Notes under the pieces: generated by a model
Seen by the model: only the letters and a program-made list of their open reading frames with translations
Told to the model about the DNA's origin: nothing
Database searches by the model: none
Made by a program: the position numbers and the translations under genes
Shown: piece after piece, positions 54,920 through 57,746 of the stretch
Layout: the number at the start of each line of letters is the position of its first letter
How positions within the stretch are numbered: position 1 is the stretch's first letter
Origin: Leucobacter chromiireducens
GTDB lineage: Bacteria > Actinomycetota > Actinomycetes > Actinomycetales > Microbacteriaceae
Reading direction: 5' to 3'
Length of the DNA: 64,000 nt
Assembly: GCF_003917135.1 (NCBI RefSeq)
Contig: NZ_RPDI01000008.1
Location: 7,265-71,264, forward strand

Positions 54920-55831
54920 ATGATGAAGAAGACCAAGCGAAGCCTCACCGGAGCGCTCGCGCTCGGTGCGGCGGCAGCGCTCGCCCTCGCGGGCTGCAGC
55001 GCGAACACGGACGGCGGCTCGGACGCCGCCGGCGGCGACAAGACGATCACCCTCGGCTTCCTGCCCTCCTGGACGGACGGCCTGAGCACCGCATACCTCC
55101 TCGAGAACCAGCTCGAGCAGCTCGGCTACGAGGTCAAGATGGAGGAGCTCACCGAGGCCGCCGTGCTCTACACGGGCCTCGCCTCCGGTGACATCGACAT
55201 CTACCCGTCGGCGTGGTCGGAGAAGACGCACACGAAGTACATGGAGCGGTACGGCGACGACATCGAGGATCTCGGCGCGTACTACGACAACGCGGTGCTG
55301 ACGCTCGCGGTCCCCGAGTACGTCGACATCGACTCGATCGAGGATCTGAAGGGGAACGCCGCGCGCTTCGACGGCAAGATCATCGGCATCGAGCCGAGCG
55401 CCGGCCTGACCGAGCAGACCGAGACCGTCGTGATGCCCGAGTACGGCCTCGACTCGGAGTACGAGCTCGTCACCTCCTCGACCGCGACGATGCTCGCGAC
55501 GCTGGGCGACAAGATCGACCAGCAGGAGGACGTGGTCGTCACGCTGTGGCGCCCGTTCTGGGCGAACGACGCCTTCCCCATCAAGGACCTGAAGGATCCG
55601 AAGCAGGCGATGGGCGAGCCCGAGGCCCTGCACTTCCTCGCAACGAAGGGCTTCTCGGAGAAGTACCCGGACGCCGCTGAGCTGATCGGTGGCATCGAGC
55701 TCGACGACGCCGAGTACGGCGCGCTCGAGGACCTCGTGGTCAACGAGTACGGCGAGGGCAAGGAGCCCGAGGCCATCGCCGACTGGATCGGCAAGTTCCC
55801 CAACGCGTTCAGCACCCAGCTGACGAAGTAG
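54920..55831 (+). CDS. proX: Glycine betaine ABC importer, substrate-binding lipoprotein
   Basis: A 303-residue binding protein. A lipoprotein signal peptide has KK at the start, a hydrophobic core and the lipobox LALAGC with the modified Cys at 26. The mature part resembles OpuAC/ProX binding proteins (LGFLPSWTDGLSTAYLLENQLEQLG, YPSAWSEKTH, LWRPFWANDAF). Two Trp-rich segments may form the aromatic cage for betaine. An AAAGGAAG site precedes the ATG. Last gene of the operon; a terminator follows. Confidence 0.92.
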   Translation: MMKKTKRSLTGALALGAAAALALAGCSANTDGGSDAAGGDKTITLGFLPSWTDGLSTAYLLENQLEQLGYEVKMEELTEAAVLYTGLASGDIDIYPSAWSEKTHTKYMERYGDDIEDLGAYYDNAVLTLAVPEYVDIDSIEDLKGNAARFDGKIIGIEPSAGLTEQTETVVMPEYGLDSEYELVTSSTATMLATLGDKIDQQEDVVVTLWRPFWANDAFPIKDLKDPKQAMGEPEALHFLATKGFSEKYPDAAELIGGIELDDAEYGALEDLVVNEYGEGKEPEAIADWIGKFPNAFSTQLTK

Positions 55832-55869
55832 CGCTCCCCCACCGGCCGGCTCTCGGCCGACGGTAGCGC

Positions 55870-55910
55870 GCGACGGCGGCCCGTTCCCTGGTGGAACTGG
55901 CCGCCGTCGC
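55870..55910 (+). terminator. Terminator of the glycine betaine operon
   Basis: Perfect 12-bp arms gcgacggcggcc (55870-55881) and ggccgccgtcgc (55899-55910), extended by GTTCC/GGAAC inside. Its right arm ends one base before the -10 box of the next transcript. Confidence 0.85.
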
Positions 55911-55911
55911 G

Positions 55912-55917
55912 TATCCT
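55912..55917 (+). promoter_or_regulatory. -10 box of the leader peptide and ABC-F gene
   Basis: TATCCT, 6 nt before the ATG of the leader peptide, so that peptide should be at the very 5' end of the RNA. A possible -35 TGGAAC (55892) would be only 14 bp away. Confidence 0.6.
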
Positions 55918-55923
55918 GGGACC

Positions 55924-55947
55924 ATGCGCGTGTACTTCTTCATCTAG
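55924..55947 (+). CDS. Leaderless leader peptide MRVYFFI
   Basis: Seven codons ATG CGC GTG TAC TTC TTC ATC then TAG, directly behind a TATCCT box and 131 bp ahead of the ABC-F gene. No other short ORF fits. Short aromatic-rich peptides of this kind stall ribosomes when certain antibiotics are bound and so control ABC-F and erm genes by attenuation. The peptide itself was not known to me from a specific study; the role is inferred from position. Confidence 0.6.
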   Translation: MRVYFFI

Positions 55948-55958
55948 GGCGTCCTGTT

Positions 55959-55984
55959 CCGCAGCGGCTCAGCCGTGTCTGCGG
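55959..55984 (+). other. Hairpin after the leader peptide
   Basis: CCGCAG (55959-55964) pairs with CTGCGG (55979-55984), with an inner CGGC/GCCG. It is 11 nt after the leader stop and is followed by GATCAGTTTCTC; it may act as an attenuator. Confidence 0.5.
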
Positions 55985-56078
55985 GATCAGTTTCTCGATG
56001 CCTCAAGCGCTGCCCCTCCCCTCCTGCCTCTCGTGCCGGATGGGACGCTGGTGACGGCGCGCACAGAAGAAGGACACC

Positions 56079-57746
56079 ATGTCACGCGTTCCCTCGTCCC
56101 CCGCAGTGTCGACCCCCGCCGGCTCGGCCGGGGGCGCACAGCTCACCGCAGCCGGGCTCTCGCTCCGCCGCGGCGGGCGCACCCTCGTCTCTGAGCTCAC
56201 GCTCACCGTCGACGCCGCCACCCGGCTCGCGATCGTCGGCGAGAACGGGCGAGGCAAATCCACCCTGCTCGCGGCGCTCGCAGGTGACTTCGAGCCCGAC
56301 ACGGGAACCGTGTCCAGGCACGGCAGGATCGCGGTCGCCGCGCAGGAGATGCCCCTCGCCGAGGGCGCAACCGTCGGGACCGCGGTCGCGTTCGCGATTC
56401 GCGACTCGCTCGCCGCGCTCGACGCGCTCGATCGCGCAGCCGAGGCGCTCGCCGAGGCGGGTGCCAGCCCCGAGACCGCCACGGCAGTCGAGACGCGGTA
56501 CGCCACGGCGCTCGACACCGCGACCCACCTCGATGCCTGGGACGCCGAGCGGCGCGTCACCCAGGCGCTCGAGGCGCTCGACGCCGAAACGAACCTCGCG
56601 CGGCCGCTCGCCGAGCTCTCCGTCGGGCAGCGCTACCGGGTGCGGCTCGCCTGCGTGCTCGCCGGCGACGCCGAGATCCTGCTCCTCGACGAGCCGACGA
56701 ACCACCTCGACGCGCGTGGGCTCGCCGCGCTCACCGACGCGCTGCGGGCGCGCGGCGGCGGCTACGCCCTGGTGAGTCACGACCGGCAGCTGCTGCGCGA
56801 CTGCGCGGAGGCCTTCCTCGACCTGGATCCCGCACCGGATGGGCGCGCGCAGCGCTTCAGCGGCGGCTACGCCGAGTTCCGCGCGGCGAAGCTCGCGGCG
56901 CGCGCCAGCTGGGAGCAACGCTACGCCGCGCAGCAGGCGGAGCTCGCGCAGGCCGCGGCGGACCTCGCGGCGGCGCAGGCGCGACTCAGCACGGGGTGGC
57001 GCCCGGAGAAGGGCACCGGCAAGCACCAGCGCGCCAGCCGCGCGCCGGCGATCGTGCAGAGCGTGCGGCGCCGACAGGCCGCGCTCGACACGGCCGCGAT
57101 CCCGCTCCCGGAGCCCCCGCTCGCGCTCGCCGCGCCGCGGGCCCTCGTCCGCGCCAGCGGCCCGCTGCTCCTCGCCGACGGCGTGAGCCTCGCGCCCCGG
57201 CTCGGCACGCGGGTGAGCTGCGCGCTCGCCGCAGGCGAGCGACTGCTCGTGCGCGGTCCGAACGGTGCGGGCAAGTCCACGCTGCTCGGGATCCTGGCCG
57301 GTCAGCTCACGCCTGCGACGGGCGGCGTGCGGCTGCACCCCGAGGCGCATCGCGAGCTGCTCGCGCAGGAGGAATCGTTTTCGGGGGGGCGGAGCGCCGC
57401 CGAGCTGTTCCGGGCGCGGCTCGGGCTCCTCCGCAGCCGCGGCGTCCTCCCCGAGGCCGGCGATGGGCCGGCGACGCTCACCGAGCTCGGGCTCCTCACC
57501 GCCCGCGAGAGCCAGGTGCCCGTGGCCGAACTCTCCGTTGGGCAACAGCGCCGACTCGCGCTCGCGCTGTGCCTCGTCGCACGCCCCGACGTGCTCCTGC
57601 TCGACGAGCCGAGCAACCACCTCTCGCTCACGCTCGTTGAGGAGCTCACCGAGGCGCTCGCGGCCTCGGCCGCGGCGATCGTCGTCTCCACACACGATCG
57701 GGCGCTGCTCGCGGACCTCGCCTCCTGGCCGACGCTCACGCTGTGA
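56079..57746 (+). CDS. ABC-F ATPase, antibiotic-resistance type
   Basis: A 555-residue protein with two ABC ATPase halves. First half: Walker A GENGRGKST, signature LSVGQRYR, LLDEPTNHLD. The linker region WRPEKGTGKHQRASRAPAIVQSVRRRQ matches the interdomain (P-site tRNA-interacting) segment of antibiotic-resistance ABC-F proteins such as TlrC/OleB/VarM. Second half: GPNGAGKST, LSVGQQRR, LLLDEPSNHLS. Such proteins push drugs (macrolides, lincosamides, streptogramins, pleuromutilins) off the ribosome. It is preceded by a leader peptide and has an AAGGACACC-type site. The exact drug range cannot be read. Confidence 0.9.
   Translation: MSRVPSSPAVSTPAGSAGGAQLTAAGLSLRRGGRTLVSELTLTVDAATRLAIVGENGRGKSTLLAALAGDFEPDTGTVSRHGRIAVAAQEMPLAEGATVGTAVAFAIRDSLAALDALDRAAEALAEAGASPETATAVETRYATALDTATHLDAWDAERRVTQALEALDAETNLARPLAELSVGQRYRVRLACVLAGDAEILLLDEPTNHLDARGLAALTDALRARGGGYALVSHDRQLLRDCAEAFLDLDPAPDGRAQRFSGGYAEFRAAKLAARASWEQRYAAQQAELAQAAADLAAAQARLSTGWRPEKGTGKHQRASRAPAIVQSVRRRQAALDTAAIPLPEPPLALAAPRALVRASGPLLLADGVSLAPRLGTRVSCALAAGERLLVRGPNGAGKSTLLGILAGQLTPATGGVRLHPEAHRELLAQEESFSGGRSAAELFRARLGLLRSRGVLPEAGDGPATLTELGLLTARESQVPVAELSVGQQRRLALALCLVARPDVLLLDEPSNHLSLTLVEELTEALAASAAAIVVSTHDRALLADLASWPTLTL

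Follow-up and report, generated by a model that had tools for sequence, protein, structure and literature searches.

The window analysed here, a 64,000 nt stretch of the Leucobacter chromiireducens contig NZ_RPDI01000008.1, holds a seven-codon open reading frame (ORF) shortly behind a −10-like box and upstream of an ABC-F ATPase gene, which raises the question of whether a peptide encoded at what would be the very 5′-end of the message could control the gene that follows. The answer that we favour, and consider likely, is that MRVYFFI is a leaderless, probably macrolide-sensing translational attenuator leader of an ABC-F ribosome-protection gene. The TATCCT box, the seven-codon ORF, the hairpin after its stop codon and the ABC-F gene listed in a preliminary description were all found where it had placed them, and the features of the locus are the following.

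55912–55917, forward strand: TATCCT, a −10-like promoter element; TANNNT is also present in the class I loci described below
55924–55947, forward strand: leader ORF MRVYFFI plus TAG, putatively leaderless; the stop codon occupies 55945–55947
55930–55941, forward strand: 5′ strand of the predicted helix between leader and Shine-Dalgarno (SD) region, made of GUGU, an A mismatch and CUUCUUC, from the Val, Tyr and two Phe codons
55947–56003, forward strand: hairpin 1 of the predicted fold, a strong one that starts on the third base of the stop codon
56007–56060, forward strand: hairpin 2 of the predicted fold
56066–56077, forward strand: SD region GAAGAAGGACAC of the ABC-F gene, the 3′ strand of the predicted leader-codon helix
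56079–57746, forward strand: ABC-F ATPase of 555 aa in an intact frame, from the ORF translation and NCBIfam

The seven codons and stop read ATG CGC GTG TAC TTC TTC ATC TAG; six bases separate TATCCT from the ATG at 55924, 131 nt lie between the MRVYFFI stop and the ABC-F start, and GAAGAAGGACACC directly precedes that start at 56079. Both ATP-binding cassettes of the ABC-F protein are intact, judging by the Walker A, LSVGQ and Walker B motifs. The best NCBIfam model was NF000171 (TlrC/CarA/OleB/SrmB-type ribosomal protection) with 278.9 bits against a cut-off of 800, followed by NF000355 (ribosomal-protection-like ABC-F) with 276.6 bits against a cut-off of 380, and five related ABC-F proteins likewise stayed under the cut-offs. 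Because its best scores fall under the cut-offs, the protein is, by sequence, a divergent relative of the TlrC/CarA/OleB/SrmB-type ribosomal protection proteins. TlrC, CarA, OleB and SrmB are linked to macrolides.

A scan of 55700–56200 found neither a sigma-70 −35/−10 pair nor a T-tailed terminator; hairpin 1 is therefore not a canonical intrinsic terminator, and an intrinsic terminator 3′ of MRVYFFI was rejected for the window. A −35 element was also discarded as too weak, with a mean best match of 3.08/6 in class I and II loci versus 2.38 in shuffled class I promoters. Rfam gave one sub-threshold match and none reaching the gathering score in 55800–56200, and only a tRNA in 15 related loci.

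Conservation and types of the leader ORF

The ABC-F protein was searched in 398 genomes of the family, 396 of the order and 54 of the genus, which gave 27 matches at E ≤ 1e-80, 76 at E ≤ 1e-75 and 24 at E ≤ 1e-75, respectively (own genome included in each), and the upstream regions of all 134 resulting loci were examined. A leader was defined as TANNNT followed after 5–8 nt by an ATG or GTG opening an ORF of 2–18 codons, at most 500 nt upstream of the gene. Exactly one such ORF was found in 91 of the 134 loci and none in 43, with L238 counted as having one after a second, two-codon match was dropped. Among the loci of at least 49% identity, the window excluded, 71 of 75 carried exactly one, and 19 of the 58 loci below 49% did so; the loci being related, these counts are not independent trials. 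The remaining four of the 75 comprised L148 and L157, with a 19-codon ORF, L128, with a one-base gap, and L184, with none. As a control, the 450 nt upstream of 203 gene-like ORFs from 400 kb of the own genome were scanned, and an ORF of 3–18 codons was present in 5/203 and one of 6–8 codons in 2/203. The leader of L128 is one base shorter than in near-identical relatives, and its peptide is thereby frameshifted; the missing base could be an assembly error or mark a decayed switch.

The preliminary description had proposed looking for MRVYFFI-like peptides before related ABC-F genes, and such peptides were found: MHFYFFI, MRLYFFI, MRMYFFI and MHLYFFV occur in the same position in the four nearest orthologues, and MQWYFFI, MHLYFL and variants in others. 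It had also made its reading depend on conservation of the short ORF, and the peptide-level conservation seen before orthologous ABC-F genes favours it.

The pattern M-x-x-Y-F-F-x-stop matched three times in the 398 family genomes (in the window, at L028 as its ABC-F leader, and at one site elsewhere that lacks a −10 box) and its reversed control twice, so this pattern alone is not above chance. M-H-L-Y-F-[LF]-stop matched eight times in 398 genomes, by coordinates always at an ABC-F leader (8/8), with none for the reversed pattern among the matches listed; 10 of the 11 sites found by leader patterns alone precede an ABC-F gene. That MRVYFFI is a chance short ORF without function is barely credible: seven codons hold little information, and the three-to-two result for the YFF pattern would suit such an origin, but conservation at the same place against the background contradicts it. 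On sequence evidence, the short leader ORF before the ABC-F gene is real and conserved at the peptide level, at the same place. From a wider set of 80 loci, reaching far beyond the lineage, 9 were inspected and 14 scanned, and four of the scanned loci had a leaderless ORF of 22 codons at most.

Class I, to which the window belongs, comprises 47 loci with 33 distinct nucleotide sequences, and its leaders have six (28 loci), seven (18) or eight (1) codons. The peptides include MRVYFFI, MHFYFFI, MRLYFFI, MRMYFFI, MHLYFFV, MQWYFFI, MRHYFFL, MHLYFL and variants, MHLIFL, MHLYFM, MFLLLFS and MQFLLFL, among others; starts are ATG (35) or GTG (12), and synonymous variation extends to TTC/TTT, TAC/TAT, TTG/CTG/TTA and all three stops. 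L192 (MYSHLR) was excluded from class I in the pairing, codon, accessibility and length counts. The preliminary description had placed ribosome stalling on the first few codons, but the conservation speaks rather for stalling at the end of the ORF, since it peaks C-terminally, beside the stop codon: the second residue from the stop is F in 45 of the 47 loci and Y in the other 2, and the last one is L in 33, I in 5, S in 3, M in 2 and H, C, V or T in one each.

Class II comprises 26 loci with leaders of 13–18 codons, for example MYSGIASMRLRTGR, MVPGTALMRLRSAA and MTTCFLGICAIARPRARR, and 23 of the 26 contain [KR]-x-[KR]. By eye, among those listed, the Arg codons sit in an apparent GC-rich stem or hairpin around the stop, so RNA structure may account for part of this motif. 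The class II loci (L121–L143 except L128, L133 and L141, together with L151, L162, L165, L177, L183 and L185) form a sister ABC-F clade. Class III consists of 17 loci below 49% identity, 16 with three-codon leaders and one with a two-codon leader (MKL, MEL, MIL, MKS, MWI, MWL etc.). Its members are paralogues at 39–45% identity (L029, L030, L032, L033, L035, L036, L187, L189–L191 and L193–L199). In a protein tree of 80 of the 134 loci, restricted to full-length genes, 45 of 46 class I rows grouped together on the same side of a branch (95/90), with L028, on a long branch, outside; 20 class II rows and L128 formed a separate group (100/99), and the window clustered with L220–L223 (100/100). By eye, five ABC-F-type genes (L002 and L003 of the own genome, L150, L158 and L171) have no uORF, and their own start lies 6 nt behind TANNNT, as would suit a gene that is itself leaderless.

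Leader start and predicted pairing with the ABC-F Shine-Dalgarno region

In the 47 class I loci, the gap between TANNNT and the start codon was 6 nt in 36 and 7 nt in 11, where 5–8 nt had been allowed. The mean complementarity to the 16S end was −4.25 kcal/mol for the 47 leaders, −4.33 for random genome 15-mers and −6.10 for the ABC-F sites; leader complementarity is thus no stronger than random, which means that the set of 47, rather than the window taken alone, lacks an SD signal. Both marks of a leaderless uORF, a −10 element 6–7 nt before ATG or GTG and the lack of an SD sequence, were found, the second of them over the set. For leaderless translation in mycobacteria, a 5′-terminal ATG or GTG is described as both necessary and sufficient (PMC4633059, in the part available). 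For the window, we infer that transcription starts at or beside the A of the MRVYFFI ATG. Transcription might also start farther upstream, with the conserved ORF leadered and the −10-like box fortuitous or lying within the message. The −35/−10 pair missing from the window and the degeneracy of the boxes (24 different hexamers among the 47 loci) would fit such a start, but the narrow spacing and the SD signal absent before the ORF over the set speak against it, and we hold it to be improbable.

The whole 158-nt leader fold had a z of −1.94, and 6 of 200 shuffles were equally stable. In the predicted fold, CUUCUUC (55935–55941) pairs with GAAGAAG (56066–56072) over 7 bp with a pair probability of 0.83–0.84, enclosing the two hairpins, and the flanking GUGU:ACAC is weak (0.16–0.26); with 30 nt of the gene added, 55926–55932 pair instead with 56083–56089 inside the ABC-F start. 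The hairpin named in the preliminary description is present, but it is not the only telling RNA feature: the leader codons are also predicted to pair with the ABC-F SD. Since Phe-Phe codons resemble the anti-SD sequence, some leader:SD pairing is expected by composition, and shuffled SD regions attain the duplex energy of the window in 8.6%. Swapping SD regions among the eight YFF-type loci weakened the duplex from −13.75 to −11.45 kcal/mol (13 of 2000 permutations were as low), and the change among the other 33 class I leaders, from −8.63 to −8.27 (228 of 2000), was not significant. In an alignment of L220–L223 without the window (A2), the leader pairs with the SD region across 11 positions, and L223 has GUC in place of AUC together with C in place of U on the SD side (A-U to G-C), in a set of four sequences only.

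A further alignment (A1) took in 28 MHLYFL-type leaders of the 47 class I loci, and left out the window, L220–L223, L028, L133, L236, L238, L239, L240, five MF- leaders and further copies of identical leaders. RNAalifold paired leader UCCU with SD AGGA, and the stop codon plus CGG with a downstream CCGUCA. The two helices had 95.8% of cells paired versus 94.4% in shuffled alignments (4/500), and 37–68% when slid; cells changed on both sides numbered 7 versus 2.6 (1/500), and the covariation score was 0.146 versus 0.118 (3/500). Two of the five measures did not exceed the shuffles, namely pairs changed on both sides (1 versus 1.3) and further pair types (8 versus 9.2). The sole pair changed on both sides was the stop-codon pair (G-C in 19, A-U in 7, unpaired in 2), and the SD pairs had no changes on both sides among the 28 leaders.

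Masking of the leader by a model ribosome raised the computed SD accessibility of the window from 0.21 to 0.27, a small release because the SD re-pairs elsewhere. Larger rises were obtained for L220 (0.32 to 0.57), L221 (0.40 to 0.83), L222 (0.24 to 0.50) and L028 (0.23 to 0.49), and for L240 (0.00 to 0.42), where no control was possible; L223 rose slightly (0.50 to 0.58) and L239 fell (0.30 to 0.22). Over the 43 leaders, out of 44, that had controls, the mean went from 0.41 to 0.50, with 0.38 in the control; the rise exceeded 0.02 in 24/43 and the value lay above the control in 32/43. Many plain MHLYFL leaders kept their SD accessibility or lost some of it on masking. Leader:SD pairing as a general class I switch was set aside, since neither the swap test on leaders other than the YFF group nor the masking of many MHLYFL leaders supports it; the predicted leader:SD helix in the window's own group is partly supported by comparison.

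The same leaderless drug sensor might act on transcription instead, through premature termination that is perhaps Rho-dependent or occurs at a hairpin without a U-tract. There are precedents in msrD, vmlR, lmrC and whiB7, and the characterised ABC-F attenuators act at least partly on transcription, as far as the sources available describe them; the covarying stop-codon helix of the MHLYFL leaders lies far from the SD, and the lack of a rise in SD accessibility in many of these leaders points the same way. No terminator-like site is present in 55700–56200, however, and in the window's group the SD itself is part of the predicted leader helix, with cognate leader:SD pairs outdoing swapped ones, so that we regard transcriptional control as possible but unlikely.

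Proposed mechanism and inducing drug

Under the translational attenuation that we favour, the transcript would start at the leader ATG, so that a 70S ribosome would initiate without an SD sequence. Without a drug, the ribosome would run off, the leader Phe codons CUUCUUC would pair with GAAGAAG of the ABC-F SD, as predicted by the fold, and the gene would be shut. With a tunnel-binding antibiotic in the ribosome, most likely a macrolide, the hydrophobic peptide would arrest it on the final codons or on the stop codon, a position suggested by the C-terminal conservation and by the likeness to MsrDL. The stalled ribosome would cover the leader codons, the SD would be freed and the ABC-F protein could be made.

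By analogy, the inducer is probably a macrolide. MsrDL stalls at its stop codon with erythromycin, the class I leaders MHLIFL (L226) and MHLYFM (L233) are near to it and are the nearest in the set, the sister clade has [KR]-x-[KR], and the nearest protein model is that of TlrC/CarA/OleB/SrmB; each of these favours a macrolide. Counted from the stop, L3 and I4 of MsrDL correspond to Y and F in MRVYFFI, which makes the inducing drug uncertain.

Another effect of the leader on translation, such as coupling or a response to Phe/Tyr supply in place of drug sensing, could be read from its aromatic-rich codons, and whiB7/wblC leaders respond to amino acid starvation too, according to the part of a review available. 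Such an effect is quite improbable: the aromatic content is not kept as such, with MFLLLFS, MQFLLFL and MHLIFL at the same place, and the ABC-F genes behind nearly all pattern-found sites (10/11) and the [KR]-x-[KR] arrest motif of the sister leaders also argue against it.

If true, the drug-sensing attenuation would give drug-bound 70S ribosomes in Actinomycetota a second role, that of resistance sensors, when they initiate on leaderless messages; in mycobacteria at least, leaderless starts are a major feature (PMC4633059, in the part available). It would also provide a natural set of very short arrest peptides for the rules of macrolide stalling (MRVYFFI versus MHLYFL, MHLIFL and MsrDL).

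Relation to known leaders and spread

The poly-cysteine leaderless short ORFs of mycobacteria reportedly sense cysteine supply and attenuate the next genes. They resemble the present leader in being leaderless and in translation attenuation, and differ in that cysteine rather than a drug is sensed and that different genes follow; these ORFs (Canestrari 2020) are cited in the available part of PMC13236596.

The streptococcal msrD leader MsrDL (MYLIFM) stalls with erythromycin at its stop codon and needs L3 and I4 for this, but not Y2 (PMC10314930, in the part available). Like the class I leaders, it is hydrophobic, very short and placed before an ABC-F gene, with a penultimate Phe and a hydrophobic last residue; its six codons are shared by 28 of the 47 class I leaders, for which stop-codon stalling is the natural reading too. 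It differs in being streptococcal and in controlling transcription, by way of a poly-U terminator, and it is not termed leaderless in the available part of the same paper. MRVYFFI as a leader of the MsrDL type proper (six codons, essential L3/I4, F5 and M6-stop) was rejected, since it has seven codons and Y-F in place of L-I. The [KR]-x-[KR] (+x+) motif is the macrolide-arrest motif of MefAL and ErmDL, as quoted in PMC10314930; these two share it with the sister-clade leaders, which are leaderless, and not with the window's leader type.

The Streptomyces genes lmrC, tiaA and are5sc resemble the window's gene as actinobacterial ABC-F genes under ribosome-mediated attenuation, but their inducers are lincosamides, streptogramin A and pleuromutilins, their peptides include MLV and MVGDDDISG, and the TiaA and Are5sc uORFs come with ribosome binding sites (PMC8546547 and PMC12421871, in the parts available); the word leaderless is absent from the text of both papers. 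CplR, VmlR and VmlR2 also have short uORFs, and stalling at that of CplR frees a sequestered SD, alongside transcription attenuation. These are three-codon uORFs (MR[I/M], MIN and MK[L/Q]) of other phyla, found by uORF4u, and the MKL-like class III leaders recall those of CplR (MR[I/M]) and VmlR2 (MK[L/Q]), going by the accessible part of PMC10201436. As far as its description is available, uORF4u includes an SD search for prokaryotes, so leaderless leaders could be missed by it. In the open-access literature, leaderless uORFs before ABC-F genes were not found described among the matches listed, and in the parts available PMC10502375 and PMC9159947 treat leaderless messages and ABC-F proteins apart. 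A leaderless ABC-F leader is a variant of the known ribosome-mediated attenuation and no new kind of control.

With somewhat less assurance than for MRVYFFI itself, we think it fairly probable that in Actinomycetota this ABC-F lineage has leaderless arrest-peptide attenuators as its standard form of control. Three leader types (hydrophobic MHLYFL/MRVYFFI, +x+ of 13–19 codons and MKL-like of 2–3 codons) would occupy the same 5′-terminal place, each matching a drug-sensing principle of SD-led leaders elsewhere, with a switch built from the leader's own codons; they would travel on plasmids and could have escaped SD-based uORF searches.

Plasmid relatives were represented by 25 records found by DNA (query L022) and 20 by protein (the window's ABC-F), of which eight, some of them near-copies, were examined. 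All eight had a leaderless ORF upstream (2–22 codons, within 500 nt): MHLYFL in five, and a 14-codon ORF in the other three, of which two contain [KR]-x-[KR]. An overlapping MFS gene follows the ABC-F gene in 5/8 (unannotated there in L261), and one of the eight, a plasmid of Prescottella equi, carries erm(46) 1.2 kb downstream of the ABC-F gene; the loci for these MFS and erm(46) observations are L255–L259 and L262. If true, the proposed control would explain inducible expression of ABC-F genes, which are also carried by plasmids and in one record lie near erm(46).

(Near-)identical ABC-F proteins with an MHLYFL leader occur across different genera (L016/L118 and L020–L022, L228, L231, L232), and such identity suggests either recent transfer or contamination of the assemblies. 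The record of L261 (NZ_LT559118.1), labelled plasmid I, has 11.85 million bases and is therefore probably a chromosome; its leader is MHLYFL, in which CUUCCUGU is, by eye, the complement of ACAGGAAG within the SD region of the ABC-F gene.
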